Under the pieces are notes generated by a model that had not been told where the DNA came from, ran no database searches, and was given only the letters and a program-made list of their open reading frames with translations. DNA of 34,562 nt from a virus. The translations under genes were made by a program, and so were the position numbers. This document shows, one piece after another, positions 2,937 through 27,818 of the stretch (position 1 is its first letter; each line of letters opens with the position of its first letter). Location: positions 1 to 34,562 of the IMG/VR virus record IMGVR_UViG_3300037961_001129; one strand, given 5' to 3'.

Positions 2937-2979
2937 TGTGAATTCAATACCCCCTTGTGAATTCAATAGGGTATATTTG
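2937..2979 (+). promoter_or_regulatory. Paired TGTGAATTCAATA elements plus -7 box
   Basis: Two exact copies of TGTGAATTCAATA start at 2937 and 2956 (19 bases apart). The first is followed by CCCC and the second by GGG. Immediately after the second comes TATATTTG (2972-2979), a perfect match to the Bacteroidota -7 box TAnnTTTG. The spacing to a TTG at 2955-2957 is only 14 bases, short for a -33 element, so promoter strength is uncertain. A second lone TATATTTG lies at 3012-3019. The paired element recurs in five other places of the window and is probably a binding site. Confidence 0.65.
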
Positions 2980-3037
2980 CATTATATAAAGTTTTTCTCT
3001 GTTTAGTCCTTTATATTTGATTTTGTTCAATCAAGAG

Positions 3038-3069
3038 AGTGGCAGCCCCGTAAGGCTGTCACTTTTTTT
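3038..3069 (+). terminator. Intrinsic terminator after lysis block
   Basis: A ten-pair stem, AGTGGCAGCC (3038-3047) with GGCTGTCACT (3054-3063), loop CCGTAA, one G-U pair, followed by a run of seven T to 3069. It ends transcripts coming from the envelope/lysis genes. It also lies downstream of the -7 box at 2972, so a transcript starting there would be only about 85 bases long. Confidence 0.92.
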
Positions 3070-3077
3070 GCATATAA

Positions 3078-3109
3078 TTTGGATATGTCAGTTGGGCTTT
3101 ATATATTTG
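3078..3109 (+). promoter_or_regulatory. Promoter for recombination genes, leaderless
   Basis: TTTG (3078-3081), a 20-base spacer and TATATTTG (3102-3109) match the Bacteroidota -33/-7 consensus closely. The ATG of the next gene is at 3114, only four bases after the -7 box. In this promoter class transcription starts roughly 3-7 bases after the box, so the mRNA would be leaderless or nearly so. Confidence 0.85.
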
Positions 3110-3113
3110 CCTT

Positions 3114-3665
3114 ATGACTATATACGAGAAACTGGTGGATGTTCAGGGGAGACTGAAAGCACCAAAGAATCAGAGAAACAATTTCGGTAAATATAATTAC
3201 AGAAGTTGTGAGGACATCTTAGAGGCAGTAAAACCTCTATTAGTAGAGCACAAACTTGCTCTTACTATATCGGACTATGTAGATACTACACAAGCTCCGA
3301 TGGTTTCAGCTACAGCAAAAATCACTGATGGTAAAGATACTATTGAGGTTAGTGCTCAGGCTGGAATTGACATTAACAGGAAAGGTATGGACATCGCTCA
3401 ATCATTTGGGTCAAGTTCATCTTATGCACGGAAATACGCTCTAAACGGATTATTTCTTATTGACGATACCAAAGACTCAGATGCTACTAATACTCACGGA
3501 AAAGCAGTTACAAATACTGTAAACGAGGCTTTAGCTTGGTTACCTGACAGTGGTGTTAAATTTGATAACGCCAAAACAGCATTGAAGTCTGGTAAAGTGT
3601 CGATTCAAGACATTAGAAAGAAGTATAAAGTAAGTAAAAAAGTAGAAGAGTTATTAAACGCTTAA
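3114..3665 (+). CDS. erf: ERF-family single-strand annealing recombinase
   Basis: 183 residues. The N-terminal two thirds follow the ERF pattern closely: LKAPKNQRNNFGKYNYRSCE at 15-33, then ILEAVKPLL, then GMDIAQSFGSSSSYARKYAL at 91-110 and NGLFLIDDTKDSD at 111-123. ERF proteins anneal complementary single strands and promote recombination and genome circularisation. Residues about 135-183 form a Lys-rich C-terminal tail that is variable in the family. The gene follows its own strong promoter and is followed within 10 bases by an SSB-like gene, the usual partner. Confidence 0.93.
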   Translation: MTIYEKLVDVQGRLKAPKNQRNNFGKYNYRSCEDILEAVKPLLVEHKLALTISDYVDTTQAPMVSATAKITDGKDTIEVSAQAGIDINRKGMDIAQSFGSSSSYARKYALNGLFLIDDTKDSDATNTHGKAVTNTVNEALAWLPDSGVKFDNAKTALKSGKVSIQDIRKKYKVSKKVEELLNA

Positions 3666-3674
3666 TTTTTAAAT

Positions 3675-3941
3675 ATGGATAATAAACAAGCAATTTATGT
3701 AGGAACTGGCACAAAGCCAGATAATTTCAATGGCATTAACTTCAGTGTATCTGAAAGTAAACTAAGAGACCATTGGTATGAGTATAACGGAGAGAGATAC
3801 GTTAGACTTACCATCGAGCCAAAGAAAGAGCCGATGTATGGCAAGACTCACAACGTAAAGGTTAACACTTGGAAGCCACAAGGTGAGGCAAGTGCTCCAG
3901 TTAAACAAGCTGTGGAGGAGAATAGCGACCTCCCTTTCTAA
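3675..3941 (+). CDS. SSB-like single-stranded DNA-binding protein
   Basis: 88 residues. The centre, with YNGERYVRLTIEPKKEPMYGKTHNVKVN at residues about 37-64, looks like a small beta-rich OB-type domain with many aromatic and basic residues. The last residues, EENSDLPF, match the acidic C-terminal tip of SSB proteins (DDDIPF/DDLPF) that recruits partner enzymes. No standard SSB domain could be recognised by eye, so the call rests on the tail and on position right after the ERF gene. A strong terminator follows at 3949-3973. Confidence 0.7.
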   Translation: MDNKQAIYVGTGTKPDNFNGINFSVSESKLRDHWYEYNGERYVRLTIEPKKEPMYGKTHNVKVNTWKPQGEASAPVKQAVEENSDLPF

Positions 3942-3948
3942 AGTAATC

Positions 3949-3973
3949 AGGGGAGGTTCGCCTCCCCTTTTTT
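3949..3973 (+). terminator. Intrinsic terminator after SSB-like gene
   Basis: A perfect eight-pair stem, AGGGGAGG (3949-3956) with CCTCCCCT (3961-3968), closed by a stable TTCG loop and followed by T's to 3973. The next start codon is only three bases downstream, so some readthrough or processing must feed the next gene, or it depends on a promoter not seen. Confidence 0.95.
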
Positions 3974-3976
3974 ATT

Positions 3977-4276
3977 ATGAAACCTAAATTTATAAAATTA
4001 ATTATGAGCGACTTAAATTTACCCCTACAGGAGAACGCTGTATTTAGCTATGTCTGCTCTCTGGCGAATAAGACAGGTTATTGTTACGCCACTAGCAAAC
4101 ATATATGTGAGAGTCTTGATATAAAAGACAGGACTTTTTATAGAATCCTAACAAGACTTGAGGAGAAAAAGTTTGTGACTAGGGTTACTAAGAGTGTAGG
4201 GAATGATGGTAAAGAGCGTAAAATCTACGTTAATCCGAAATATCGTTCTCTTTGTGATACAACGTATGATAATTAA
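3977..4276 (+). CDS. Winged-helix DNA-binding protein
   Basis: 99 residues. Residues 10-40 (MSDLNLPLQENAVFSYVCSL) resemble the start of replication initiator or helix_turn_helix_36-type winged helices. A helix-turn-helix can be read at about 43-63 (TSKHICESLDIKDRTFYRIL) followed by a wing, FVTRVTKS. A DNA-binding role as initiator or regulator is inferred. It sits between a strong terminator and a cluster of TACAATGTA palindromes (4277-4340), which makes it a candidate to bind those sites. It starts in the context TTATTATG. Confidence 0.75.
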   Translation: MKPKFIKLIMSDLNLPLQENAVFSYVCSLANKTGYCYATSKHICESLDIKDRTFYRILTRLEEKKFVTRVTKSVGNDGKERKIYVNPKYRSLCDTTYDN

Positions 4277-4340
4277 ACAATGTACTATAGAATACAATGT
4301 ATTATAGATAAATAAAATATACTATACATTGTACTATAAT
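4277..4340 (+). repeat. Cluster of TACAATGTA palindromes before primase-helicase operon
   Basis: Three sites: ACAATGTACTATAG at 4277-4290, TACAATGTA at 4293-4301 followed by TTATAG, and the inverse TACATTGTA at 4325-4333 flanked by ACTA and CTATAAT. The core TACA-W-TGTA is palindromic. A second cluster with the same core lies at 15659-15730 before the structural operon. No TAnnTTTG box is seen between here and the primase start at 4370. Probable operator or activator sites. Confidence 0.7.
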
Positions 4341-4369
4341 ATTTATAAAAAACAAAATTATCTTTTATT

Positions 4370-6118
4370 ATGCAAACGATTGAACAAAAATTTTTAGCTT
4401 TAGGCATACAACCAAAGGGAAATGGTGTAGAGCAAAAAGTTAGATGTCCTAGGTGCGCCAGTTTAGGAAAAGAGAATTGGAAAGATACTTGTCTTTCTAT
4501 TAATCTGGCGAAAGAGGTATATAATTGCCACAAGTGTGGATTTAAAGGTACAGTTAAAGATAGAGAAGAATATAAAATTATGGAACAAACCAAAAGAGTT
4601 TATAAGTCTCCGAGTAAAAGTAATATGAAAATCCTTACTGCTGAAGGGCGTAAGTTTTTAAACGATAGAGGTATTACTGATGAAGTGATTAACCTTAATA
4701 AAATTGTATCGACTAGAGATAACAAGAGTATTGCTTTCTCGTATCTTAAAGACGGGCAACTCATAAACTACAAAACAAGAGGTATAAACGGCAAAACATT
4801 TACTCAAGCTAAAGATGCTAAGCCTATTATATACAATTACGATAGGGTCAAAGATTCTGAATCTATTGTTATATGTGAGGGTGAGATAGATTCCTTATCG
4901 TGGGAAGTTACTGGTATTGACTTTCACACTTCAGTAAATATGGGTGCGCCTAATGTGGGAGATAAGAATATAGATAAGAAGTTGGAGTGCATTTCTAATT
5001 GTTATGAAGTGTTTGAACAGGCAAAGAAAGTGTATATTGCCACTGATAATGATGATAACGGCAGATTGCTAGAAAGAGAACTACTTAGACGAGTTGGCGC
5101 AGATAAATGTAAAATAGTAGATTTAAGACCATTTAAAGACGCTAATGAGGTACTCCTAAAGGAAGGCGTAGAAAGCCTCAGAAACAGGCTTAAAATGGCT
5201 CAAGACCCTAAATTAGAGGGTGTATTTGAAGTAACAGATGTTATGGAATCTATGTTAGATGGATTTCATAACGGACAGGAAAGAGGTACAACTACTTACA
5301 TTTCTGCTGTAGATGAGGCGTGGACTTGGAGAAAGCAAGAGATTACAATATGGACAGGATACCAAAATGAGGGAAAGAGTTTGTTTCTTAATCAACTTGC
5401 AGCGATAAAGGCGTTTTACGATGGATGGAAGTTTGGTATTTTTACGCCAGAAAATATGCCTATGAGAGACTTCTTTAATGATATTATTGAGATGTACATA
5501 GGCAAAAGTGCTGACCCATACTACTCACATCAGATGACTGAAGAAGAATATAAAGAAGGTATTGAGTTTGTTAAAAAACATTTCTTTGTTATCTATCCTA
5601 AGAAGTTCTTTACTCTTGATAATATCTTTGAACGTGCTAAGTTCTTGGTACGTCAAAAGGGTATTAGGTCTCTAATCATTGACCCATACAATACAGTTCA
5701 GCACAAGATGTTTTCTGGCGAAAGAGAAGATTTATATATTAGTAGATTTATGTCTGAACTAAAAAGGTTCGCAATAGAAAATGATATAAGTGTGAATTTA
5801 GTAGCGCATCAAGTAACGCCACAAAAAACTGAAGATGGAAGGTACTACAAGCCTGATGTCAATAAAATAAAGGGCGGAGGCACGTTTGCTGACAAGGCAG
5901 ATAATGTGGCGTATGTATGGAGACCAAACAGGGCTTTGGATTTTTCAGATACAAGTGTTATATTTGGAACACAGAAGATAAAGAAACAGAAGTTAGTTGG
6001 TATCCCACAAGACGTTACTGGCATAAACTTCAACGTAAGAGAGCAGAGGTATTACTTTAATGGGTACACGCCCTTTAATGATATTGATGCTAAAAGATGC
6101 GAAAGAAAGCAAGAGTAG
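4370..6118 (+). CDS. Bifunctional DNA primase-helicase (T7 gp4-like)
   Basis: 582 residues with three recognisable parts. A zinc ribbon at 26-56 has Cys26, Cys29, Cys53 and Cys56 (CPRC...CHKC). A TOPRIM primase core has CEGEIDSLS at 169-177 with catalytic Glu170 and ATDNDDNGR at 224-232. A RecA-like DnaB-family helicase domain has Walker A GYQNEGKS at 330-337 and Walker B LIIDPYN at 435-441, plus the VAHQVTP motif further on. It would unwind the fork and make primers. The length is normal for the family. The end overlaps the next gene by 22 bases. The start ATG is in the TTATTATG context. Confidence 0.95.
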   Translation: MQTIEQKFLALGIQPKGNGVEQKVRCPRCASLGKENWKDTCLSINLAKEVYNCHKCGFKGTVKDREEYKIMEQTKRVYKSPSKSNMKILTAEGRKFLNDRGITDEVINLNKIVSTRDNKSIAFSYLKDGQLINYKTRGINGKTFTQAKDAKPIIYNYDRVKDSESIVICEGEIDSLSWEVTGIDFHTSVNMGAPNVGDKNIDKKLECISNCYEVFEQAKKVYIATDNDDNGRLLERELLRRVGADKCKIVDLRPFKDANEVLLKEGVESLRNRLKMAQDPKLEGVFEVTDVMESMLDGFHNGQERGTTTYISAVDEAWTWRKQEITIWTGYQNEGKSLFLNQLAAIKAFYDGWKFGIFTPENMPMRDFFNDIIEMYIGKSADPYYSHQMTEEEYKEGIEFVKKHFFVIYPKKFFTLDNIFERAKFLVRQKGIRSLIIDPYNTVQHKMFSGEREDLYISRFMSELKRFAIENDISVNLVAHQVTPQKTEDGRYYKPDVNKIKGGGTFADKADNVAYVWRPNRALDFSDTSVIFGTQKIKKQKLVGIPQDVTGINFNVREQRYYFNGYTPFNDIDAKRCERKQE

Positions 6119-6399
6119 ATGCGAATCAAAAAGAAATAGTACAGGAATTGAGAAAGCGAGGTATATCTGTTTTACATACACACCAACTTGGTAAAGGTGC
6201 GCCTGATATTATAGTAGGCTATATGAATTCAAATTACCTTATTGAACTAAAAGACGGAAACAAATCTAAAAGTCAACAGAGATTAACCAAAGACGAATTA
6301 GACTTCTCACTTAAATGGCGTGGAAGTTATGCAGTGTGCAATTCGTTAGAGCAAATCCTGTTACTTATAGATTATGACGAAGAACGAGCTATTAGATAA
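6097..6399 (+). CDS. VRR-NUC domain nuclease
   Basis: 100 residues. The sequence GKGAPDIIVGYMN (32-44), then YLIELKDGNKSKSQQRLTKD (47-66), follows the VRR-NUC pattern GxPDxxx...ExK...SxxQ, a small PD-(D/E)XK fold related to Holliday-junction resolvases. Asp37, Glu51 and Lys53 are the likely catalytic residues. A role in resolving branched replication intermediates before packaging is expected of the family. It overlaps the primase-helicase by 22 bases and the next gene by 26, indicating a tightly coupled operon. Confidence 0.88.
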   Translation: MRKKARVDANQKEIVQELRKRGISVLHTHQLGKGAPDIIVGYMNSNYLIELKDGNKSKSQQRLTKDELDFSLKWRGSYAVCNSLEQILLLIDYDEERAIR

Positions 6400-6922
6400 A
6401 TTAGCTGAAAAATATGATGATTGGTGGAATATGGCGAAGTCTTTTAAAGTCAGTGATGACGAGGCTTCAGACCTTGTTCAAGAGATGTTTGTTAGGATAT
6501 ATGATTATGTCAAAGAGCCTAAAAAGATATTCTACAACAAGGATGAGATTAATACGTTCTACATATATATAACGCTAAGGAATTTGTATTATTCAAACTT
6601 TAAAAACAATAGATTGACATTTGTAGAGGAAGTAAAGGATTTTATGATAAAGGAGTTTGATATGCCAAACTATATGGAGACAAGTAAAAAAGAACACCTT
6701 GAGAGAGTATTTAACAATGTTGATTCTGTTATAGATACTTGGTATTGGTATGACAAAAAAATGTTTGAATTATATTATAGGACTGATATGTCTATGCGAG
6801 ATATATCCAGTGAGACAAAAATAACATTGAGTTCAATTTTTAATACGTTATCAAATGCAAAAAAAGAAATCAGGAAAAAGCTCGAAGAAGCCTATCAAGA
6901 GTACAGGCGCACAAAAGAGTAA
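6374..6922 (+). CDS. Sigma-70-family (ECF-like) sigma factor
   Basis: 182 residues. Residues 28-75 resemble sigma region 2 (SDDEASDLVQEMFVRIYDYV, then TFYIYITLRNLYYSNFKNNR). Residues 125-170 resemble region 4 with a helix-turn-helix (MSMRDISSETKITLSSIFNT, NAKKEIRKKL). The linker is short, as in ECF factors. It could direct host RNA polymerase to phage promoters; the structural operon lacks a clear TAnnTTTG promoter, so late gene activation is an attractive inference. Identification rests on motif pattern, and the protein is diverged. Its 3' end overlaps the next gene by 68 bases. Confidence 0.75.
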   Translation: MTKNELLDKLAEKYDDWWNMAKSFKVSDDEASDLVQEMFVRIYDYVKEPKKIFYNKDEINTFYIYITLRNLYYSNFKNNRLTFVEEVKDFMIKEFDMPNYMETSKKEHLERVFNNVDSVIDTWYWYDKKMFELYYRTDMSMRDISSETKITLSSIFNTLSNAKKEIRKKLEEAYQEYRRTKE

Positions 6923-7265
6923 GGGATTAGGAGACACTGTAGAGAAAGTATTTAAAGCTACAGGTGTAGATAAAGTCGCCAAGTGGATATTAGGAGAGGA
7001 CTGCGGTTGTGAAGAACGAAAGCAATCCCTCAATAGATTGTTCCCTTATGTTAACCCAGAATGTTTGACTGAAATTGAATATAATTATCTACACAAGTAT
7101 TTTACTGATAGACCCAATGTGGTAGATAATGCTATGCAATTAGAGTTACTTAAAATATATAATAGAGTATTACATCAAAATAGCAAGCCAACAAGTTGTT
7201 CGCCTTGCTTTTTAAATAACGTACAGGACAAGTTGTATAAGATATACTCCGAATATGAAAAATAA
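6855..7265 (+). CDS. Conserved phage protein with CGC and CSPC cysteine clusters, unknown function
   Basis: 136 residues. The Lys/Ser-rich N-terminus (about 1-25) is encoded by the 68 bases that also encode the sigma factor's C-terminus in another frame. Then follow GLGDTVEKVFKATGVDKVAK (25-44) and GEDCGCEERKQSLNRLFPY (47-65), a pattern I associate with Bacteroidota phage proteins of unknown function near replication genes. Cysteines at CGC and CSPC could bind zinc. A downstream start that would avoid the long overlap is not available as ATG near residue 25, so the overlapping start is kept. Not assignable further. Confidence 0.75.
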   Translation: MQKKKSGKSSKKPIKSTGAQKSKGLGDTVEKVFKATGVDKVAKWILGEDCGCEERKQSLNRLFPYVNPECLTEIEYNYLHKYFTDRPNVVDNAMQLELLKIYNRVLHQNSKPTSCSPCFLNNVQDKLYKIYSEYEK

Positions 7266-7689
7266 AATAAACAGAATACATAGTTTAGAGAAGGCGTTTG
7301 TTCTATATATGAACACTATGTATGACTGGAATCTAAACTGGACTGGCGAAGGTATGTCTAATTGGGATGCTGAAGGTTCTACGGCTAAGGGAAATAAATG
7401 CGTTGTTGAAATGAAGTTTAGAAAGACCTATTATGAAACTAAAATGATTGAGGTATTTAAGTATAATAAACTTATGTCTCTTGATGATAGCATTGTAAAA
7501 TTATACTTTGTCAGTGACCCTAAAGGTAGCTATATGTTCCACCTCAATAAACTTAATGGATTAAGCAAGGAAAGTTTATCTTGTCCGAAAAATACTATGT
7601 GGAATGGAGCAAAGACAAATAAAGAGGTTTACCTTTTATCAGAGGACTTGGCTGTAATGAAACAACAATTCAATACCAAGTTATTTTAG
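7255..7689 (+). CDS. Putative small PD-(D/E)XK endonuclease-like protein
   Basis: 144 residues. The segment SNWDAEGSTAKGNKCVVEMK (35-54) has the spacing D-x10-14-ExK of a PD-(D/E)XK catalytic core, with the strand CVVEMKFR carrying Glu and Lys, followed by a helix (KMIEVFKYNKL) as in small Holliday-junction resolvase or restriction-type folds. This is a motif reading only, and substrate and role are unknown. It lies in the replication block and overlaps the preceding gene by 11 bases. Confidence 0.6.
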   Translation: MKNKINRIHSLEKAFVLYMNTMYDWNLNWTGEGMSNWDAEGSTAKGNKCVVEMKFRKTYYETKMIEVFKYNKLMSLDDSIVKLYFVSDPKGSYMFHLNKLNGLSKESLSCPKNTMWNGAKTNKEVYLLSEDLAVMKQQFNTKLF

Positions 7690-7690
7690 T

Positions 7691-7846
7691 ATGCCATTAA
7701 TGAGACCAAAGAAATACGAGAAAAACAAAGACTTCATTCAAAGATGTATGGGTAATGCTAAAATGGGAGAGGAGTTTCCCAATAGAGACCAGCGTTATGG
7801 CGTATGTCAAACAATCTGGAAAGACCAGTTCGACCCAAAAAAGTAG
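7691..7846 (+). CDS. Small conserved phage protein with RCM...EFP...QR motif
   Basis: 51 residues, start ATG directly after the previous stop. It carries FIQRCMGNAKMGEEFPNRDQ at 15-34, followed by RYGVCQTIW. Small phage proteins, or C-terminal tails of phage proteins, with the pattern FIxRCMxxxxMxxEFPxxxQRxxVCxxxW are widespread, and I recognise the pattern but know no function. The two Cys residues, C19 and C39, are part of the conserved signature. It is the last gene before a strong promoter at 7855-7886. Confidence 0.8.
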   Translation: MPLMRPKKYEKNKDFIQRCMGNAKMGEEFPNRDQRYGVCQTIWKDQFDPKK

Positions 7847-7854
7847 TTAACAAT

Positions 7855-7886: not shown

Positions 7887-7904
7887 TACTCAAATCGAGT
7901 ACGA

Positions 7905-8096: not shown

Positions 8097-8097
8097 A

Positions 8098-8609: not shown

Positions 8610-9385
8610 AGCATACAATAATGACGCTAGACGGAAAGTTCTGGCAATATGAAGACATACTAAAAGAGATGGATAGTGACGAGTTTTACTATGGTTACTT
8701 AGGAAAGTACGCTCTTAGCAGTAGTTCGGTAAAGACACTTTTGGATTCTCCAAAGGCTTACTTAAAATCATTAAGACAACGTAGCGACACCCCTGCGCTT
8801 ATGCAGGGGAGGCTCGTTCACTTGGCGGTTTTAGAGCCTGATAAGTTTGACGAGCTAAACTTTGTAGATGTACAGAGTAGAAACACCAAAGCATTCAAAG
8901 AGGCACTTAGCGAAAACTCGGAGAGTTATACAATTAAAGAACACGACTCAGCTATGTATATGGCTCAAGCGATTCACGATAATAAATACGCCAGAGAATT
9001 ATTAGAGGGCACTGATAAAGAAGTGCCATCAATGAATATGATGTTTGGTAAACCCTTCAGAGGTAAAGCAGATGCTTTAGGTTCAGGGCGTATGGTTGAT
9101 TTAAAGACTACCAGTAGCGATATGAATGATTTCCACTGGAGCGCAAAGAAGTATAAGTATATGTGTCAAGCCTACATTTATAGCAAGTTATTCGATGTAG
9201 ATTACAAAGACATATATTATCTGGCGATAAACAAAGAGACTTATGATATAGGAATCTTTGATGTTTCTCAGGAATTTTATAACTTAGGCGAAAGTTTAGT
9301 AGAGAAGGCAGTTCAAGTATATACGGATGAGATAGAGAATGGTATGAATGAATTACACAACTATACTATTAGAGGTACACTTTGA
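8606..9385 (+). CDS. PD-(D/E)XK exonuclease, RecE/Cas4-like (DUF3799-type)
   Basis: 259 residues from the ATG at 8606, which overlaps the previous stop (ATGA); an upstream TTG at 8567 would overlap the neighbour by 43 bases and is not needed. Motifs: MQGRLVHLAVLEPDKF (67-82) with His72, FRGKADALG (151-159) with Asp156, and MVDLKTTSS (163-171) with Asp165 and Lys167, followed by YKYMCQAYIY (183-192) with the conserved Gln. This is the layout of phage RecB-family exonucleases (PDDEXK, RecE-like). It would resect double-stranded ends for the ERF annealing protein. Confidence 0.88.
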   Translation: MKHTIMTLDGKFWQYEDILKEMDSDEFYYGYLGKYALSSSSVKTLLDSPKAYLKSLRQRSDTPALMQGRLVHLAVLEPDKFDELNFVDVQSRNTKAFKEALSENSESYTIKEHDSAMYMAQAIHDNKYARELLEGTDKEVPSMNMMFGKPFRGKADALGSGRMVDLKTTSSDMNDFHWSAKKYKYMCQAYIYSKLFDVDYKDIYYLAINKETYDIGIFDVSQEFYNLGESLVEKAVQVYTDEIENGMNELHNYTIRGTL

Positions 9386-10212: not shown

Positions 10213-10234
10213 TTACTTTAATTAAAGATGGCGT

Positions 10235-10868: not shown

Positions 10869-12082
10869 TGAAGAATGTTAATCTTAATCCAAAGTATCAT
10901 TCGTTATTTAAGTCTCCATCCAGATATCATATCTGTACTGGCGGTCGAGGTAGCGGAAAGTCTTTTGCAGTAAATACGTTCTTAGTATTACTCACTTACG
11001 AAAAAGGACATAAAATACTTTTTACTCGATATACGATGACTTCGGCAAGTATGTCTATTATACCAGAGTTTCTGGAGAAGTTAGACCTTATGGGTATTGG
11101 TGGTAATTTTACTGTTACAAAGACTGAAATCATAAATAATCTTACAGGGAGTAGTATATTCTTCAGTGGTATCAAAACAGCCAGTGGAGACCAGACCGCA
11201 AAGCTAAAGTCCATTCAGGGTGTTACTACGTTTGTATTGGATGAGGCGGAGGAGCTTACAGATGAAGAGTCGTTTGATAAGATAGATTACTCTGTAAGGG
11301 CTATGGGTACGCAGAATAGATGTATCTTAATTCTAAACCCTACCACAAAAGAACATTGGATATATCAGAGGTTCTTTCAGAACAGAGGTATTCCTGATGG
11401 GCACAATGGAGAGAAGGAGAATGTGAATTATGTACACACTACATACTTAGATAATAAGAAACACCTATCTGAATCATTTGTTGGGCAAGTTGAAGATATG
11501 AGAACAAGACGACCAGATAAATATAAGCACCAGATATTAGGTGGCTGGTTAGATAGAGCTGAAGGAGTTATCTTTACTCACTGGCGCATTGGAGAGTTCG
11601 ATAACAATCAGGACACAATCTTTGGCTTGGATTTCGGATTTTCCACAGACCCTTCAGTATTAACTGAAATTGCGATAGACAAGACACGAAAAATAATATG
11701 GATTAGAGAGCACTTCTACAAAGCAGGTATGTCCACCTCCAACATATTCGAGATGTGCCGTAGAATCGCAGGAAAACAGCTTATAGTGTGCGATAACAGT
11801 GAACCTCGACTTATAAGTGAATTGAAGACTAAAGGGCTTAATATAACGCCAACGATAAAGAAGAAGGGTAGTATATTGACAGGAATCGCTCTAATGCAAG
11901 ACTACGATATTATTGTAGATAAAGAATCTATCAATACAATTAAGGAGTTCAATAATTATGCTTGGAAGCTAAAGGGTAGTATTCCACAGGATAACTGGAA
12001 TCACAGCATTGATGGAAGTCGGTACGCAATTCAATACCTACTTACTCGCTCTGTTCCGAAGGGGATGTACATTCTCCGTTAG
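10868..12082 (+). CDS. terL: Terminase large subunit
   Basis: 404 residues. ATPase domain: Walker A GGRGSGKS at 25-32 and Walker B TFVLDEAEEL at 121-130 with Asp125 and Glu126. Nuclease domain: FGLDFGFSTDPS at 252-263 with Asp255, VCDNSEP at 307-313 with Asp309, and a final acidic site near DGSRYAIQY. This is the Terminase_3/PBSX-type packaging motor, with a length normal for the family. It cuts concatemers and pumps DNA into the prohead. Its last 41 bases overlap the end of a convergent minus-strand gene, with no terminator visible between them. Confidence 0.96.
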   Translation: MKNVNLNPKYHSLFKSPSRYHICTGGRGSGKSFAVNTFLVLLTYEKGHKILFTRYTMTSASMSIIPEFLEKLDLMGIGGNFTVTKTEIINNLTGSSIFFSGIKTASGDQTAKLKSIQGVTTFVLDEAEELTDEESFDKIDYSVRAMGTQNRCILILNPTTKEHWIYQRFFQNRGIPDGHNGEKENVNYVHTTYLDNKKHLSESFVGQVEDMRTRRPDKYKHQILGGWLDRAEGVIFTHWRIGEFDNNQDTIFGLDFGFSTDPSVLTEIAIDKTRKIIWIREHFYKAGMSTSNIFEMCRRIAGKQLIVCDNSEPRLISELKTKGLNITPTIKKKGSILTGIALMQDYDIIVDKESINTIKEFNNYAWKLKGSIPQDNWNHSIDGSRYAIQYLLTRSVPKGMYILR

Positions 12083-12467
12083 AACGCTCTATCTCTTTCT
12101 GTAGATTAGCAAGAGCTCTCCAAGCAACTTTGGCTGAGTGGCGCACTCCATCTGTATCTATTGTACCAGCCTGAAGTAGGTGGCGAGTTAGTGCATCTAA
12201 TTCATCGCCAGATTTACCTCTATCCCAATGCAGAGGTTTATCTGGATTGTGTTGCTGATTTCCCATAAAAGAACATTGAGCAACTTCTTTTATCGCATCA
12301 GGGAAATAATTAAGCACTCCACTGTAAACAGGTGTTTGTTTTCTTGTGAATTCAATAGGGGTCTCTGTGAATTCAATAGGGGTCTTTTCTTTTTCTTGTG
12401 CATACTCTATTGCTTCATCAAAATAATCTCCTGTGAATTTAACACCTCCTGTATTGTTCTGTTTCAT
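12042..12467 (-). CDS. dATP/dGTP diphosphohydrolase-like protein (PF18909 type)
   Basis: 141 residues and the only convincing minus-strand gene. From residue 50 it reads VLNYFPDAIKEVAQCSFMGN, then a KPLHWDRGKSGDELDALTRH segment, then RHSAKVAWRALANLQKEIE. This is the layout of the small phage family named dATP/dGTP diphosphohydrolase N-terminal (DUF5664 relatives), with the conserved RHLL, Asp-rich and HxAKxAWRAL parts. The family is linked to nucleotide-pool control. The N-terminal 48 residues are low-complexity and include TPIEFTETPIEFTR, created by two in-frame TGTGAATTCAATAGGGG elements. Its promoter candidate is at 12559-12566, with a terminator-like hairpin in the leader. Confidence 0.8.
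   Translation of the reverse strand: MKQNNTGGVKFTGDYFDEAIEYAQEKEKTPIEFTETPIEFTRKQTPVYSGVLNYFPDAIKEVAQCSFMGNQQHNPDKPLHWDRGKSGDELDALTRHLLQAGTIDTDGVRHSAKVAWRALANLQKEIERSNGECTSPSEQSE
12345..12381 (+). repeat. Two TGTGAATTCAATAGGGG elements inside a coding region
   Basis: Copies start at 12345 and 12366, 21 bases apart, so each unit adds exactly seven codons to the minus-strand gene (TPIEFTE and TPIEFTR). They are the longest exact matches to the elements at 2937-2971, 15364-15393 and 27784-27818, and are in the same orientation on the + strand. They lie within the first 125 bases of the gene they interrupt. Confidence 0.9.
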
Positions 12468-12485
12468 ATCCGTGAATTTAATAGG
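12432..12485 (+). repeat. Two degenerate TGTGAATTTAA(TA) elements at the minus-strand gene start
   Basis: TGTGAATTTAACA begins at 12432 (inside the first codons of the minus-strand gene) and CGTGAATTTAATAGG spans 12471-12485, just upstream of its start codon. Both carry GAATTT in place of GAATTC. The second abuts the terminator-like hairpin at 12489-12520. Confidence 0.7.
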
Positions 12486-12488
12486 TAC

Positions 12489-12520
12489 AAAAAAAATACC
12501 CTATCTTTCGACAGGGTATC
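12489..12520 (-). terminator. Terminator-like hairpin in leader of minus-strand gene (possible attenuator)
   Basis: Read on the minus strand, GATACCCTGTC-GAAA-GATAGGGTATT forms an eleven-pair stem with a GAAA loop, followed by eight U's. It lies between the likely minus-strand promoter box (12559-12566) and the start codon at 12467, so it would stop transcription before the gene unless read through. No other minus-strand gene lies upstream that it could serve. Confidence 0.8.
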
Positions 12521-13408: not shown

Positions 13409-13429
13409 TCATTACGCAAGGATAATCAT
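13381..13429 (+). repeat. Three GGATAATCAT direct repeats with a DnaA-box-like site
   Basis: GGATAATCAT occurs at 13381-13390, 13403-13412 and 13420-13429 (22 and 17 bases apart), each preceded by CA or CAA. The first copy runs into TCATCCACA (13387-13395), one mismatch from the DnaA box TTATCCACA. Iteron-like; AT-rich DNA and more repeats follow. The phage encodes a DnaA domain-IV-like protein at 9566-10084. Confidence 0.6.
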
Positions 13430-13452
13430 TGTATAATATAAAACAGATTCTT

Positions 13453-13785
13453 ATGAAACTTAAATGGATTGAAACAATAGATGTAAATGCCAAAGAATGG
13501 TTTGACAAACAGAATGGAAATTCTTATTTCGCTGGTACTGTTACACTGAACTACGGAAAGAAGAACCAAAGAGAATACCTTATGCCTATGCAATACGGAT
13601 ATGGTTCGCAATATGAATATGAAGCAAAGAAGGTACTGACTGAATTTAATTGTATCTCTGGTGCTGAATTATCTCCATTGTCTTCTTTTTGTAGAGACAA
13701 CAATATAATTCTACGAACAAGCAAACAAGAAAATTGTAAGCAAAGAGAATTGTTTGAAATTGAACGGAACTATAATGCAAAGTAA
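13453..13785 (+). CDS. Conserved hypothetical phage protein
   Basis: 110 residues from ATG 13453; the frame can be extended to a TTG at 13429, but that lies in the repeat array. The sequence has an N-terminal beta-rich part (WFDKQNGNSYFAGTVTLNYG) and LMPMQYGYGSQYEYEAKKVL, a pattern (NGNSY...PxQYGYGxQYE) I recognise from phage hypothetical proteins near early genes. Two Cys lie in the C-terminal part. Function unknown. Confidence 0.7.
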   Translation: MKLKWIETIDVNAKEWFDKQNGNSYFAGTVTLNYGKKNQREYLMPMQYGYGSQYEYEAKKVLTEFNCISGAELSPLSSFCRDNNIILRTSKQENCKQRELFEIERNYNAK

Positions 13786-13860
13786 ATTCAATACCCTGTT
13801 GAGTTGTGTACCTTATGAATTTAATATATAATAGATTCAATCGGTGAGCAATTCAATAGG
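13782..13860 (+). repeat. Four degenerate TGAATTCAATAGG elements
   Basis: Copies: GTAAATTCAATACCC at 13782-13796, overlapping the stop of the preceding gene; TATGAATTTAATA at 13814-13826; AGATTCAATCGG at 13833-13844; and TGAGCAATTCAATAGG at 13845-13860. All are in + orientation. The first again carries CCC after AATA, as at 2937 and 15365. Confidence 0.65.
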
Positions 13861-14024
13861 TAACAGATTCGGTCAGTTGCATACTATTTAGATTGGTTCT
13901 AAATTGTATAAATGTTTGGATATGTCGTAAAATTGTCGTAGTATTCGCGCGCCCGTTCATATAGTATATATAAATACCCCCCTTATTTAGAATGGATATA
14001 AACTAAAAAAAAAGTTTGTTTTTG
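13861..14024 (+). other. AT-rich non-coding stretch with a GC-rich spot, possible origin or control region
   Basis: Together with the repeats before it, this forms about 300 bases without a gene (13786-14091). It contains a short CGCGCGCCCG island near 13950 in otherwise AT-rich DNA, two similar GTCGTA words, and ATATAGTATATATAAATA followed by six C's. No ORF with support and no terminator were seen. A replication origin is possible because of the neighbouring iterons and AT-rich content; the evidence is weak. Confidence 0.35.
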
Positions 14025-15362: not shown

Positions 15363-15408
15363 CTGAATTCAATACCCTTGTGAATCTAATAGGTGTTTTG
15401 TATATTTG
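15363..15408 (+). promoter_or_regulatory. Leaderless promoter overlapped by paired TGAATTCAATA elements
   Basis: CTTG (15377-15380), a 20-base spacer and TATATTTG (15401-15408) match the Bacteroidota consensus. Two repeat elements overlie it: CTGAATTCAATACCC at 15363-15377, just upstream of the -33, and TGTGAATCTAATAGG at 15379-15393, starting in the -33 and filling most of the spacer. A protein bound there would block RNA polymerase. The ATG at 15413 is four bases after the -7 box. Confidence 0.85.
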
Positions 15409-15412: not shown

Positions 15413-15658
15413 ATGGCAAAGCGCAAGAAAAAAACAATCAATCTACAGAATCACACAGAATCATTAAAAGCATTCAAGTGGTGTGTAGAAAGAAATATAA
15501 GAATCTACCCAATCCCATCTGCCACACAATACCAAATAGTAATTGATAATGGCGTATCTAAAGTTATATCACCTAAATTGTACGATAAGAATGAATGGTC
15601 AGATAAAATATGGGAGTTATACAGGCATTTTTACAACAAAAGTAAAGTTTCAGTATAA
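15413..15658 (+). CDS. Small basic phage protein, possible regulator
   Basis: 81 residues. The start at 15413 is chosen because the promoter lies at 15377-15408. The N-terminus is strongly basic (MAKRKKKT), followed by LKAFKWCVERNIRIYPIPSA and a C-terminal KLYDKNEWSDKIWELYRHFY. Small proteins ending in DKxEWxDKIWELYxHxY are common in Bacteroidota phages, usually without function. It has its own operator-rich promoter and is followed at once by the TACAATGTA cluster, so it might regulate that cluster or itself; this is inference from position. Confidence 0.75.
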   Translation: MAKRKKKTINLQNHTESLKAFKWCVERNIRIYPIPSATQYQIVIDNGVSKVISPKLYDKNEWSDKIWELYRHFYNKSKVSV

Positions 15659-15730
15659 TACAATGTATAGTAAGATACAATGTATATATATTCTTTTTAC
15701 ACTGTACAGTGTATTCTACTATACAATGTA
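15659..15730 (+). repeat. Cluster of TACAATGTA palindromes before structural operon
   Basis: TACAATGTA at 15659-15667, 15676-15684 and 15722-15730, the last followed by TTATAATAT, plus a perfect 16-base palindrome TACACTGTACAGTGTA at 15698-15713. Flanks such as TATAA and TATAGTA match those in cluster 4277-4340. The region 15659-15809 has no TAnnTTTG box although it precedes about 18 kb of virion genes. Confidence 0.75.
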
Positions 15731-15809
15731 TTATAATATACTACTGTATTATATATTGTGCCATACAGGCAGTTGCGAAAACACTAAGAAATATAAAAGT
15801 TAATTTATT

Positions 15810-17622: not shown

Positions 17623-18810
17623 ATGGCGCAAATAATAAACACAAGGAGTCCGTTTTACATAAAGGTGTCAGATAGTTCACTTTCAATTGCGACACTTAGA
17701 CTTTATATATATGAAGGTGCAAAAAATACTGGAGTTCCCCCAACTTCAGATTTAAAATACACTATAGCTAAGTCCGAATTAGAGGCTAACAATCAAGTTG
17801 TATTTGAAATATCAGAGCTCATAAGAGACTATATCGACATTAAATATGATGGCGAGTATGATAGTTACTCCGTATGGGTTCTTGCGACTATAACTGCTGA
17901 AGACTCAAGCGGAAGCACTATATCATCTCCAACAGTAACTCCAAGTGATTATGCAGATCAATTTGTAGCTTTAGATGGATATGGTTACTTTGAGGAAGGT
18001 GTGAACCCTGAGCCAAGCCGTTCACTACTTCAGTCAAATAAAATAATGTATCGACCAGAAGACGGTAATATAAACATTCCTATTTTTGCTGAAGATACTA
18101 ATAGCGTTGCGTACTACAACAATGGAACTCTCGTTAGAAGCGAAACAATAACAGACAACGATAACACTAACCAAAAAATTCAATACATATCCGTATCAGG
18201 AAACTCAGATAACGCCACATACGAAGAAAGAGTATTAGAGGATGGCGGTACACTTGAATCCTCTAAGTGTCTAACAGATTTCTTATCCCTATTGGATATA
18301 GGTGAGGTAGATGAGATTGTGGTTGGTTACGATACTTCTGCTGGTACTTCATCTCACGTTATAAAAGTAAGAAAATTTGATTGCTCTAGATATGAACCAA
18401 TCAGAGTTACCTTTGTAAATAAATATGGTGCACTACAAGATTTGTGGTTTGACAGAAAGAGTGTGAATTCAATAAATGTTAAATCAAGCGATTACAAAGC
18501 GTCTGTAATGAACTTCTCTTCAACACCAACTTATGATACCTCCGCACACCAGAATAGGGTGTTAGATTTAGTGGGTACAGAAAGTATAATAATGAATACT
18601 GGGTATATAGATGAATCGTTTAACGAGGTGTTTAGACAGCTTATGCTATCAGAGCAAGTGTGGATGACAAGGTTAACTGATACTGAAGAGGTGTTGCCTT
18701 TGCGCCCAAAAACACAATCGTTACAATTTAAAACCAGAACTAACGATAAGCTAATAAACTATACAGTAGAATTTGACTTTGCTTTTGACAAGATAAACAC
18801 TATTCGATAA
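17623..18810 (+). CDS. Structural tail protein, unknown detailed role
   Basis: 395 residues, beta-rich throughout, starting MAQIINTRSPFYIKVSDSSL. The C-terminal half reads RYEPIRVTFVNKYGALQDLW, then DESFNEVFRQLMLSEQVW, VLPLRPKTQSLQFKTRTNDK and LINYTVEFDFAFDKINTIR. I recognise this arrangement from conserved tail proteins of Bacteroidota siphophages upstream of the tape measure. Distal-tail or baseplate function is plausible. It overlaps the next gene by one base. It contains one GTGTGAATTCAATAAA word at 18461-18476, probably by chance. Confidence 0.65.
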   Translation: MAQIINTRSPFYIKVSDSSLSIATLRLYIYEGAKNTGVPPTSDLKYTIAKSELEANNQVVFEISELIRDYIDIKYDGEYDSYSVWVLATITAEDSSGSTISSPTVTPSDYADQFVALDGYGYFEEGVNPEPSRSLLQSNKIMYRPEDGNINIPIFAEDTNSVAYYNNGTLVRSETITDNDNTNQKIQYISVSGNSDNATYEERVLEDGGTLESSKCLTDFLSLLDIGEVDEIVVGYDTSAGTSSHVIKVRKFDCSRYEPIRVTFVNKYGALQDLWFDRKSVNSINVKSSDYKASVMNFSSTPTYDTSAHQNRVLDLVGTESIIMNTGYIDESFNEVFRQLMLSEQVWMTRLTDTEEVLPLRPKTQSLQFKTRTNDKLINYTVEFDFAFDKINTIR

Positions 18811-23669: not shown

Positions 23670-23678
23670 TTTAATAGT

Positions 23679-25529
23679 ATGAGAATTATAGAACTTTTTA
23701 TAGACGAAGAAGGATTGTTCTCTGGTATAGATGCCATTTCAATAGTAGAGAAACCAGCGATAGAAGAGCATTTTATCGCCTTATCCGAAGAAAAAGAAAT
23801 AAAACTTGCCGAAGTAGATAAAGAGAAGAAAATACTTATGGGTGCGGCGTTAGTACCTAATAAGAATATCTACAGACGTAATGGAGAAGACGAATACTAC
23901 ATTTACTTCTCAGAAGAAACTGTACGCAAAGCATCAGAGCTATTTTTGATGCGTGGTAATCAAAATAAGAGCACTTTAGAGCACCAAGCAGAGCTTAACG
24001 GGTTATCTGTGGTAGAATCGTGGATTGTAGAGGATAAAGTGCACGACAAGAGCCGTAAATATGGTTTAGATATGCCTGTAGGCACTTGGATGGTATCTAT
24101 GAAAGTCAATAATGAAGAAGTTTGGGATGATTATGTTAAATCTGGTAAAGTAAAGGGCTTCTCTATTGAAGGTTACTTCACTGATGAGGTTGCTATGTCT
24201 CAAATAGAGCAACTTGAAGAAGAAAACGAAGCAAAACAGGTACTTTTGGAGATTGCTAACGTGATTCTTGGCGATAAATACGAATTAGCTACATACGGAG
24301 ACTACGGAAGTGGTGTTAGAAACAATGCAAAGCGTGGTATTGAGCTAAATAAGAAGGTAAACAATAAGTGCGCCACCTCTGTGGGGAAAGTAAGAGCCCA
24401 ACAGCTCAGTAGGGGTGAAAAACTCAGTGTGTCCACGATAAAGAGGATGTATTCTTACTTGTCAAGAGCTGCTGAATACTATGACCCAAGCGATTCTAAG
24501 GCTTGTGGTACAATCTCATACCTTCTATGGGGTGGAAAGGCAGGATTGGCTTGGAGTAGGTCTAAACTTCGTGAATTAGGCGAATTAGAGCTTAATTGTG
24601 ACTGTCACGAGCTATCTGAGGAGCTTGAACTCGGCTTGTACGACAAAACTTACAAAGATTACCCTGCTGCTGCCAGAAAAAACGCTAAACAAGCTCTTGC
24701 GTACTACGATAGCAACAAACCAAGATGCGGAACGCCTCAAGCGTGGCAATTCGCCAAACTATTGGTTGATGGCAAGCCATTATCTCGTTGTTTGATATCA
24801 GAGATGGCATCTTACAATAGATTTGAAAAAAAGAAAGACGAACCATACAATAAAGGTTGCGGAGGTCTTCTATGGGATGCTTGGGGAGGCGAAGAAGGAA
24901 TACGATGGGCGGAAACTAAACTTGATGAGATAAATTCTCAGGAATCTAAAATAGAATTATCCACTAAAGAGATTGATGGAAGACTCGCCTACGACACAAA
25001 AGAAGAAGCATTAAGAATTGCAAAGGATATTGGATGTGATGGTTATCACGAGCACGATGTAGATGGACAGAAGTGGTATATGCCTTGCAAAGAACATAAA
25101 TTAGCTAAATATGATGACAAAGGAAGAATTGTTAGAAGCCCGAAAGCACCAAATTCCGATACTAAAAACCCTTCTCCAAAAAGAGGTAGCAAACGCAATC
25201 CAAAAGGAGCTGCTGGGAAGGGAAGGGGAGTATCTGTTCCAGCCACAGTGTTAAAATCGCTTCAGAAGAAAGCAAATGACTTTAATGAGAAGTATAAATC
25301 TAAATTAGGTTACGGAACGACTGTAGGTCAGCTTAAATCTGTATATCAAAGAGGTGTTGGAGCGTTTCAAACATCACATAGTCCTATGGTAAAGTCTGCT
25401 CAACAGTGGGGTCAGGCAAGAGTCAATGCTTACATTTACTTACTTAAAAATGGAAGACCTCAAAACGATAAATATACTACAGATTACGACTTATTACCTA
25501 AAAAACACCCTAAATCAAGTAAAAAATGA
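23679..25529 (+). CDS. Multi-domain prohead protease (XkdF/S78-type) with duplicated accessory domains
   Basis: 616 residues. Residues 1-175 are an XkdF-like (Peptidase_S78_2) protease, with His102 in STLEHQAEL and Ser162 in VKGFSIEGYF as likely catalytic residues. Then come two related segments at about 245-300 (TIKRMYSYLSRAAEYYDPSD, SYLLWGGKAGLAWSRSKL) and 365-416 (EMASYNRFEKKKDEPYNKGC, WDAWGGEEGIRWAETKL). Next is a domain at 436-473 (YHEHDVDGQKWYMPCKEH), a Lys-rich linker and a C-terminal domain at 519-608 (LGYGTTVGQLKSVYQRGVGA, NDKYTTDYDLLPKKHP). The protease processes the scaffold and capsid. The unusual length comes from the fused domains, whose roles are unknown. Confidence 0.85.
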   Translation: MRIIELFIDEEGLFSGIDAISIVEKPAIEEHFIALSEEKEIKLAEVDKEKKILMGAALVPNKNIYRRNGEDEYYIYFSEETVRKASELFLMRGNQNKSTLEHQAELNGLSVVESWIVEDKVHDKSRKYGLDMPVGTWMVSMKVNNEEVWDDYVKSGKVKGFSIEGYFTDEVAMSQIEQLEEENEAKQVLLEIANVILGDKYELATYGDYGSGVRNNAKRGIELNKKVNNKCATSVGKVRAQQLSRGEKLSVSTIKRMYSYLSRAAEYYDPSDSKACGTISYLLWGGKAGLAWSRSKLRELGELELNCDCHELSEELELGLYDKTYKDYPAAARKNAKQALAYYDSNKPRCGTPQAWQFAKLLVDGKPLSRCLISEMASYNRFEKKKDEPYNKGCGGLLWDAWGGEEGIRWAETKLDEINSQESKIELSTKEIDGRLAYDTKEEALRIAKDIGCDGYHEHDVDGQKWYMPCKEHKLAKYDDKGRIVRSPKAPNSDTKNPSPKRGSKRNPKGAAGKGRGVSVPATVLKSLQKKANDFNEKYKSKLGYGTTVGQLKSVYQRGVGAFQTSHSPMVKSAQQWGQARVNAYIYLLKNGRPQNDKYTTDYDLLPKKHPKSSKK

Positions 25530-25663
25530 GAAAAACAAACGAAACACCAAGCAGAACATCTCCACGCAATTCAAAACGTGGTTGTTTATGTAAAGATGGA
25601 AGAACATATGCACGAAAGTGCTGTGATGGAACATTAAGAGCTCAAGGTATAGGAAAAATCTAA
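25526..25663 (+). CDS. Small Cys-rich conserved phage protein
   Basis: 45 residues overlapping the protease stop (ATGA). The core RGCLCKDGRTYARKCCDGTL is followed by RAQGIGKI. Small proteins with the pattern GCLCxDxxTYSxKCCDGxLxAQGIG are very common in Bacteroidota phages and prophages between the protease and scaffold/capsid genes. Four cysteines (20, 22, 32, 33) could bind a metal. No function is known. Confidence 0.85.
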   Translation: MRKTNETPSRTSPRNSKRGCLCKDGRTYARKCCDGTLRAQGIGKI

Positions 25664-25715
25664 CAGGGAAAATTAAATTAGTTATTATTATATACTTTAA
25701 AGTTAAATTTTTATT

Positions 25716-26273
25716 ATGGAAGGTAAAGCAACTCTTATTTTAAAAGACATTATGCAGAAACTTTCTATGATTAATTCCGAAGAGGTAAAAGAAGAAGTAG
25801 AGAACGTAGAAGTATCTGCTGAAGAAGTTGCTCCTGAAGTTGAAGTCACAGAAGAAGTTGCACTGTCTGAAGACGAAGTGGCTGAAGAAGCTACAGAACT
25901 ATCTGACGAATCTACTGAACAAGAACTTGCTGAGGATGATGAAGCTGAAAAAGAAGCTGAAGAATCTGAAGAAGAATCTGAAGAAGAAGAGTTAGAAGAA
26001 GAAAAATATGTTTCTAAATCTGAATTCGATTCTAAAATCGCTGAACTCAAAGATATGATTGAGTCAATGAAAGGTGAAATGGGTAAGGAAATGGAAACTT
26101 ACGAGAAAGAAAAAGCTGAATTGAACGCACAAATTGAAAAGCTATCTGCTGAACCAGCAGTTGAGCCTCTTGCGCACAATCCAGAACAAAAACAAGAAAA
26201 AAACGAGGGCTTCAAATTCGGTCAAAATCGCCCTCAATCGACACTTGACCGAGTAATGTCCAAACTAAATTAA
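25716..26273 (+). CDS. Head scaffolding protein (putative)
   Basis: 185 residues. Residues 22-97 are extremely acidic and repetitive (mostly E, V, A, S). A coiled coil follows at about 98-145 (KSEFDSKIAELKDMIESMKG), and the C-terminus FGQNRPQSTLDRVMSKLN matches the end of scaffolding-type proteins located right before the capsid gene in related phages. An acidic helical protein at this place would act as the internal scaffold and be removed by the protease. It starts in the TTATTATG context. Confidence 0.78.
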   Translation: MEGKATLILKDIMQKLSMINSEEVKEEVENVEVSAEEVAPEVEVTEEVALSEDEVAEEATELSDESTEQELAEDDEAEKEAEESEEESEEEELEEEKYVSKSEFDSKIAELKDMIESMKGEMGKEMETYEKEKAELNAQIEKLSAEPAVEPLAHNPEQKQEKNEGFKFGQNRPQSTLDRVMSKLN

Positions 26274-26283
26274 TAATTAAATT

Positions 26284-27177
26284 ATGCCAACTCCATCAAT
26301 TACTACTACTTACGCAGGAGAGTTTGCTGGAAAGTACATCTCTGCTGCTCTATTAAGCGGTAATACAATCGCTAACGGCGGTATTACTGTTAAGCCTAAT
26401 GTAAAGTACAAAGAAGTTGTAAAGAAAGTTGCTACAAGCGGTCTTATTGCGAACGCTACTTGTGACTTCACTGACGCTGGTTCTTTGACTTTGACAGAGC
26501 GCATCCTTCAGCCTGAAGAGTTCCAAGTGAATGTCGAGCTATGTAAGAAGGACTTTCGTTCTGACTGGGAAGCTGTTCAAATGGGTTATTCAGCCTATGA
26601 CAACTTACCTCCAAAATTCGCTGATTTCTTAATCGGTCACATCGCTGCTAAAGTAGCTGAAAAAACTGAGACAACTATCTGGCAAGGTACTAACGCTACT
26701 GCTGGTGAGTTTGACGGATTTGCTACTTTGTTAGGTGCTGACTCTGATGTTGTAGATGTTACAGGAACTACTGTTACTTCTTCTAACGTAATCGCTGAAT
26801 TAGGAAAAGTTGTTGATGCAATTCCTTCTGCTGTTTACGGTAAAGAAGACTTGAAGATTTACATCTCTTCAAACATCGCTAAAGCCTATGTGTCTGCCCA
26901 AGCTGCTCTAGGATATCGTGACCTATATCACGTTGGTAAGACTGAAATGAACTTTCAAGGTTTACCTTTGTTCGTTGCTAATGGTCTTGCTGATAATGAT
27001 ATGGTAGCTGCCGAAACATCTAACTTATACTTTGGTACTGGTTTATTATCTGACCACAATGAAGTTAAGGTTATAGATATGGCGGATTTGGATGGGAGTC
27101 AGAATGTTCGTGTTATAATGCGTTTTACATCTGGTATCCAATATGGTATCGGTTCTGACATCGTTCTTTACACCTAA
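26284..27177 (+). CDS. Major capsid protein
   Basis: 297 residues. Regular Ala/Thr/Gly-rich composition without Trp/Cys excess, LTLTERILQPEEFQVNVELC (68-87), then FRSDWEAVQMGYSAYDNLPP, a central TETTIWQGTNATAGEFDGFA, and the C-terminal RVIMRFTSGIQYGIGSDIVL. The order scaffold-capsid, the terminator directly after the gene, and the strong codon bias (more GCT/GGT/CGT, few rare codons) point to the most highly expressed gene. HK97 fold is expected for the family. No separate decoration protein was seen. Confidence 0.88.
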   Translation: MPTPSITTTYAGEFAGKYISAALLSGNTIANGGITVKPNVKYKEVVKKVATSGLIANATCDFTDAGSLTLTERILQPEEFQVNVELCKKDFRSDWEAVQMGYSAYDNLPPKFADFLIGHIAAKVAEKTETTIWQGTNATAGEFDGFATLLGADSDVVDVTGTTVTSSNVIAELGKVVDAIPSAVYGKEDLKIYISSNIAKAYVSAQAALGYRDLYHVGKTEMNFQGLPLFVANGLADNDMVAAETSNLYFGTGLLSDHNEVKVIDMADLDGSQNVRVIMRFTSGIQYGIGSDIVLYT

Positions 27178-27195
27178 TAATTAATCGTCTAACAC

Positions 27196-27221
27196 AGGGG
27201 TGCTAAACCCACCCCTTTTTT
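27196..27221 (+). terminator. Intrinsic terminator after capsid gene
   Basis: AGGGGTG (27196-27202), loop of seven bases, CACCCCT (27210-27216), then T's to 27221. It gives high capsid mRNA levels relative to downstream genes, or partial termination. Confidence 0.9.
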
Positions 27222-27233
27222 AATACTTATAAT

Positions 27234-27788
27234 ATGGCTTGTGATTTAACTGGCGGAAGATTGAGACCTTGTAAAGATGCCGTAGGTGGTATTAAAAAAG
27301 TTCATTTTGTTGATTTTGGTGATTTAGGAACGCTTACTTTTGGTAGTAGCGATGAGGTCACCGATATGACAGGAACTTTTACTTATCATACTTACGATGT
27401 CAAAGGTAATTCTTCCCTTGAAACTAACATTACGTCTTCTCTTGAGAACGGAACTACATTCTTTGAGCAAGTCGTAAACATCACTTTATTCAAACTAACT
27501 AAAGAGGACAACAAAGAATTAAAATTGATGGCGTATGGTCGCCCTCACGTTGTTGTACAAACATTCGATGATAAGTTCTTGTTAGTTGGTGCTGAAAACG
27601 GTGCTGATGTTACTGGTGGTACTGCGGTTACTGGTACTGCTATGGGTGATTTAAACGGATATACACTTACACTAACTGCTAACGAACTTCGTATGCCTTC
27701 ATTTATTGATGGCGGTACTGATGCTGACCCATTTGCAGGTATGTCTAGTGCTACTGACACAGAATCTACTCAAAGAGACCCTTCATAA
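27234..27788 (+). CDS. Major tail or head-tail structural protein (MACDLT family)
   Basis: 184 residues. The start MACDLTGGRLRPCKDAVGGI, then KKVHFVDFGDLG, is a signature of an abundant structural protein in Bacteroidota siphophages, usually called a major tail protein or phage structural protein. The remaining chain is beta-rich (TFTYHTYDVKGNSSLETNIT) with a central EQVVNITLFKL, as in tail tube folds. It is flanked by terminators on both sides, consistent with high, separately tuned expression. Its stop codon lies inside a TGAATTCAATAGGG-type element. Confidence 0.7.
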   Translation: MACDLTGGRLRPCKDAVGGIKKVHFVDFGDLGTLTFGSSDEVTDMTGTFTYHTYDVKGNSSLETNITSSLENGTTFFEQVVNITLFKLTKEDNKELKLMAYGRPHVVVQTFDDKFLLVGAENGADVTGGTAVTGTAMGDLNGYTLTLTANELRMPSFIDGGTDADPFAGMSSATDTESTQRDPS

Positions 27789-27818
27789 ATTCAATAGGGT
27801 TATGAATCTAATAGGGGG
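27784..27818 (+). repeat. Paired TGAATTCAATAGGG-type elements
   Basis: ATAAATTCAATAGGG (27785-27799) and TTATGAATCTAATAGGGG (27800-27817), with GAATTC-equivalent cores 17 bases apart. The first overlaps the stop codon of the tail protein gene. The ATAGGG end of the second forms the 5' arm of the terminator at 27811-27841. Confidence 0.8.

Follow-up and report, generated by a model that had tools for sequence, protein, structure and literature searches.

The window analyzed here, meaning the whole stretch of DNA, is a virus record of 34,562 bases in which the major genes all point rightward. Its two ends (positions 18-871 and 33706-34562) match each other at 91% identity along 857 bases and contain the same three genes. 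End overlaps were also found in six relatives (123 to 637 bases at 96 to 100% identity), indicating that the record corresponds approximately to a single genome of ~33.7 kb and suggesting that this genome is circularly permuted or redundant and was assembled from variant strains. The nearest cultivated phages are the Nonlabens phages P12024L and P12024S (terminase, 56%), and the phage collection searched contained no member of the lineage itself. The lineage is one of uncultured marine phages that probably infect flavobacterial hosts, as judged from these relatives and from the TAnnTTTG promoters.

The window contains a short word in approximately 14 copies (Table 1). Ten of these match the strict unit, T[GAC]AATYYAATA followed by GG or CC, and the remaining copies are degenerate. 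The consensus is a sharp asymmetric 13-mer, T(R)AATYYAATA(GG or CC), usually with TR in front. All strict copies are on the + strand, and a search for T[GAC]AATYYAATA[GC]{2} on the − strand of the window returned no match. Without any prior motif, AATTCAATA was the top over-represented 9-mer of the window (13 occurrences versus 0.56 expected, none reversed), and TGAATTCAATA, with at most one mismatch, gave 11 matches, all on the + strand, versus 1.85 expected. Intergenic DNA makes up only 6.7% of the window but contains eight of the 10 strict copies (p = 1.6e-8). An extra copy at position 18464 lies in coding sequence and has no G/C tail. These analyses confirm that a repeated one-directional word is present in this phage window. 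The original prediction, which listed approximately 14 copies in a single orientation, gave places that were all recovered in the sequence; the copy at 18464 had been missed.

Table 1. Repeated units and associated features of the window
Feature	Position	Strand	Remarks
Site (i), strict unit 1	2939-2951	+	Tail CCC
Site (i), strict unit 2	2958-2971	+	Tail GGG; in the −33/−7 spacer
−7 box	2972-2979	+	TATATTTG; promoter after the lysis genes
Winged-helix protein gene (HTH_36)	3977-4276	+	99 aa; preferred candidate reader
dGTP_diPhyd_N gene	12042-12467	−	Holds antisense units; PF18909, 38.4 bits, cut-off 27
Site (ii), strict unit	12347-12359	+	In the leftward dGTP-diphosphohydrolase gene; PIEFT on the − strand
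Site (ii), second strict unit	12368-12380	+	Same gene, 21 bp on, in frame
Site (ii), degenerate unit	12434-12446	+	TGAATTTAACACC; same gene
Site (ii), strict unit	12473-12485	+	Just upstream of the leftward dGTP_diPhyd_N gene start
Site (iii), strict unit	13783-13795	+	Contains the TAA stop of 13429-13785
Site (iii), degenerate unit	13816-13826	+	No G/C tail
Degenerate unit	13834	+	
Site (iii), degenerate unit	13848-13860	+	GCAATTCAATAGG; right arm of hairpin 13795-13862
Site (iv), strict unit 1	15364-15376	+	Tail CCC
Site (iv), strict unit 2	15381-15393	+	In the spacer before the −7 box at 15401-15408
82-aa protein gene	15413-15658	+	Directly behind site (iv); only in the unit-bearing clade
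Site (v), strict unit 1	27786-27798	+	Contains the TAA stop of 27234-27788
Site (v), strict unit 2	27803-27815	+	GGGGG in the 5′ arm of the terminator
Intrinsic terminator	27810-27836	+	Hairpin then T run; z −4.7

Across relatives, whose genes are simple ORF calls, the units recur at approximately five homologous loci, which correspond to the spacers of promoters, terminator-bearing gene ends, the start of the 82-aa gene, and the inside of the leftward dGTP-diphosphohydrolase gene. Core spacings were 19 at site (i) (pair at 2939), 21 for the pair at 12347, and 17 at sites (iv) and (v) (pairs at 15364 and 27786), exactly as predicted. The succession of CCC and GGG tails in the pairs at 2939 and 15364, the abutment on the −7 box at 2972, the overlaps with stop codons, and the contribution to a terminator arm had likewise been read correctly. 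In eight genomes, among them the distant G009, unit 2 of site (i) keeps the same distance to the −7 box, with 3 nt separating its AATA from the box. In other lineages, three to six units are arrayed at site (iii), and often these arrays continue into a terminator. At site (iv), most relatives carry units and some the promoter only. A G/C stem followed by a T run is present at 27810-27836 and in arrays of G002, G005, and G008, and none was found at sites (i), (ii), and (iv).

The units of site (ii) are read in frame as PIEF, GIEF, or IKF, yet they point rightward. Homologues of the dGTPase gene located on the + strand in G002, G005, and G008 contain no unit, indicating that unit placement depends on the position in the genome rather than on the gene. 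The original prediction needs correction in that the copies at 12347, 12368, and 12434 are coding, in frame in a leftward gene. On the − strand, a terminator-like hairpin with a T8 run (12492-12516) immediately precedes the start of the leftward dGTPase gene and separates it from a possible promoter. It looks like an attenuator, and a similar hairpin is present in G001. Downstream of site (i), region 2972-3110 comprises a promoter, ~85 nt, a strong terminator, and a second promoter before the erf gene; since this layout is kept in relatives, a short RNA or leader is possible. At 3086-3109 and in relatives, an extended promoter-like TGTCAGTTG or TGGCAGTTG followed by TAnnTTTG occurs in much of the clade.

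Scanning IMG/VR for two neighboring units identified at least 118 stretches. Among the matches listed, 112 of 114 loci carry a core protein of this lineage, and the other two are in contigs that also belong to it (G004 and G011). The full motif TRAATYYAATASS was found 154 times forward and 2 times reversed in 21 genomes, i.e., the window and 20 large contigs picked for holding the pair pattern. Terminase-anchored sets were picked without that criterion: among the IMG/VR matches listed, 80 close terminase relatives (at least 74% identical) contained at least 241 units, none reversed, in 805 kb, and 80 relatives whose terminases are 52 to 58% identical to that of the window contained none in 919 kb. 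The element is also absent from P12024L and P12024S. In a collection of 84,980 bacterial genomes, the pair pattern was found only on two contigs of one metagenome-assembled genome (MAG), and a host element was rejected on this basis. In an alignment chosen without regard to the motif, the unit columns and the −7 box were ~90 to 100% conserved, with changes mainly at R and YY, and the downstream flanks diverged. In G018 and G020, variant units follow a small palindrome, GATTGCTTCGCAATTCAATA, at several sites (e.g., G018 7075-7098 and 8630-8655). No Rfam family was detected in the window. In agreement with the original prediction, the open part of PubMed Central yielded no described phage element with this sequence; judging by titles and abstracts, none of the papers there containing TGAATTCAATA is apparently on phages. 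The three outcomes that would have refuted the original prediction (no enrichment over shuffled sequence, absence from syntenic positions in related phages, and an equal frequency in coding DNA) were each examined, and none of them refuted it. Together, these results define the motif, its direction, its positions, its conservation, and its restriction to one clade.

The internal grammar of the unit bears on the nature of its target. YY is TT, TC, or CT, and almost never CC. The GG and CC tails are about equally used, and GC or CG is rare. In a duplex, GG and CC correspond to a single step, so that reading of the duplex provides the simpler account, which is an argument rather than a proof. Start-to-start distances were odd in 132 cases and even in 12 (73 non-redundant arrays; arrays in L007-L242), p-values for arrays being indicative because the relatives are not independent. 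With spacings of 15, 17, 19, and 21 bp, neighboring units do not stay in a fixed phase on the helix, which counts against DNA operators. Positions that would pair inside the unit do not covary, and a palindrome with a bulged A was rejected as the unit, since A at R accompanies TC more often than TT. Because the major genes are rightward, unit direction cannot separate the polarity of transcription from that of replication. Replication polarity itself was discarded, as GC skew rises monotonically through the window, with no turning point at the array and no origin indicated.

We tentatively favor, at somewhat less than even confidence, a reading in which a single phage regulator recognizes the units as asymmetric DNA operators, all in one direction, and represses initiation or rightward elongation. 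The reader, DNA as its target, and repression are the elements that we infer in this reading. In its favor are the nearly absolute direction, the sharp asymmetric motif with its tail usage, the dependence of the units on genome position, the conservation of the unit columns and −7 box, and the distance of 3 nt at site (i). At sites (i) and (iv), a protein bound to the unit in the −33/−7 spacer would block initiation, and we propose that these spacer units place the early operon and the 82-aa gene under negative feedback. On units at gene ends, ahead of terminators, or inside the convergent dGTPase gene, the bound protein would hinder rightward RNA polymerase or help to end transcription. By analogy with stoperators (see below), such an effect on rightward polymerase would be the simplest single function for units at gene ends or inside the convergent gene. 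Since no integrase was found in 23 records, the control is expected to be temporal, and a classical immunity repressor is unlikely. The purpose for the phage would thus be temporal control and not immunity.

The protein reading such units would probably be the 99-aa winged-helix protein encoded at 3977-4276. Its predicted structure (pLDDT 83) matches MarR-like and initiator winged helices, and the residues of the recognition helix and wing are invariant. The gene was detected in 20 of 21 carriers, the exception being a fragment lacking that region, and is absent from P12024L and P12024S. The model of the 82-aa protein displays an alpha-beta-beta-beta-alpha topology with weak dsRBD-like matches only, and this protein is poorly conserved, unlike the motif. 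The winged-helix protein is preferred on the basis of these differences in conservation and predicted fold. Of the two small DNA-binding candidates originally proposed, the winged-helix protein is the better one, the 82-aa product being no recognizable DNA-binding protein. Co-occurrence does not single out a reader, because several genes are limited to the clade in the same manner: those for the HTH_36 99-aa, 82-aa, 64-aa, and VRR-NUC proteins, the primase-helicase, and the exonuclease occur in the unit-bearing clade and were found rarely or not at all in the unit-free one. Two other candidates were rejected, namely, a phage sigma-like protein, whose gene also occurs in the unit-free clade, and a DnaA-domain protein, which is missing from three carriers. 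AT-rich repeats of the ACAATGTA and TACATTGT types, corresponding to inverted repeats I1 and I2, are located behind both candidate regulator genes (4269-4340 and 15654-15757).

The units might instead be read in RNA, a phage RNA-binding protein steering terminators, leaders, and ribosome sites through UGAAUYYAAUA repeats in a manner comparable to TRAP or CsrA. We regard this explanation as rather unlikely, although it accounts for the strict sense direction, and the variable spacing would suit a flexible single strand. Some units are located at most 10 nt from the start codon of the clade-specific 82-aa gene, and the weakly dsRBD-like topology predicted for its product would be compatible with such a role. 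In several arrays that enter intrinsic terminators, the G/C tail forms one arm of the stem, an arrangement that also fits a signal in RNA and thereby counts against the DNA operators. A 26-pair hairpin at 13795-13862 (z −6.4) is conserved in the close relatives of the window; its variation mostly keeps pairing, with no pair changed on both sides, and for this reason RNA recognition stays a serious rival. The left arm of this hairpin consists of an antisense copy of the unit with wobble pairing. Against reading in RNA, units in promoter spacers lie upstream of the start point that they would control, R and YY show no pairwise covariation (the combination of A with TC, i.e., A·C, is common), and the 82-aa protein is poorly conserved whereas the motif is conserved. 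Stems formed by the G/C tails look suggestive at terminators, but the hairpin reading was rejected because tail pairing is only slightly above chance (z −2.3 with permuted tails; flip test not significant). RNA hairpins are present at a number of sites, yet they leave the motif unaccounted for.

A broader proposal is that in this one virus lineage a single word serves as promoter operator, terminator part, and gene-end signal, with a length rule governing the distance between copies, a genome-wide punctuation imposed even on an antisense coding sequence and read by one small protein; we consider it improbable. The phage-wide regulatory code put forward in the original prediction is supported in part: enrichment, strand bias, synteny across relatives, and footprint-like conservation speak for a shared, directional, phage-specific class of sites at promoters, terminators, and gene ends; a single factor and the choice between DNA and RNA go further than these observations. 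The predicted link between early, middle, and late control would follow only from the position of the sites.

It is distinctly improbable that the units are iterons, i.e., direct repeats serving a replication initiator, in which case the post-terminase array would be the origin and the promoter copies would mediate self-repression. Direct repeats 15 to 21 bp apart do lie beside AT-rich non-coding DNA, the best PHROG matches of the HTH_36 protein are replication initiation proteins, and its gene precedes that of the primase-helicase. However, approximately five loci carry units, including the end of a structural gene, the GC skew is uninterrupted at the array, and some lineages have one array only and others many. 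Recombination or selfish repeats spread between gene blocks as crossover points are most unlikely, since the footprint-like constraint in the unit, its fixed distance to the −7 box, the reuse of the same loci, and the absence of longer homologous flanks common to the sites outweigh the variable copy number per site among relatives, the in-frame entry into coding sequence, and the single direction needed for in-register crossover.

Among known systems, the stoperators of cluster A mycobacteriophages (L5) are asymmetric 13-mers present many times per genome in promoters and short intergenic gaps, with a direction tied to transcription and loss of function upon reversal (PMC9283540). Our units are similarly short, asymmetric, numerous, and located in promoters and intergenic gaps. 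In contrast, their sequence and host differ, they form arrays at 15 to 21 bp, merge with terminators and stop codons, and lie antisense in a gene: they point rightward like the main operons, and also inside the leftward dGTPase gene. The carriers also differ from the temperate phages that bear stoperators by the lack of a detected integrase in the records searched. For this reason, and because the sequence differs, we do not claim membership in cluster A, and the likeness would concern the working mode only. Start-Associated Sequences of cluster K mycobacteriophages (consensus GGGATAGGAGCCC) are located 3 to 7 bp before start codons (PMC3203893). They resemble the units in being short, asymmetric, nearly all in one direction, phage specific, and absent or rare in hosts. 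Most units are not beside a start codon: none of the 10 strict copies of the window is located 3 to 7 bp upstream of one, and some are at site (iv) in relatives. The intergenic repeats of halovirus HF2 are themselves promoters of 29 to 58 bp (PMC8707807). As for the units, they are found between genes with sequence and place conserved within one virus genus, whereas the units are beside or inside ordinary Bacteroidetes-type promoters or have none nearby. Plasmid iterons share direct repeats ~17 to 21 bp apart and a suspected winged-helix reader, with the difference that the units occupy approximately five loci rather than one origin.

Dispersed sets of directional operators have been well studied mainly in mycobacteriophages. 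If the operator reading is true, control of many sites by one protein arose also in apparently lytic phages in which no integrase was detected. A similar set in a widespread marine, probably flavobacterial, lineage would provide an entry point for studying how uncultured flavophages control their genes, and the candidate reader and its sites are small enough for direct binding tests.
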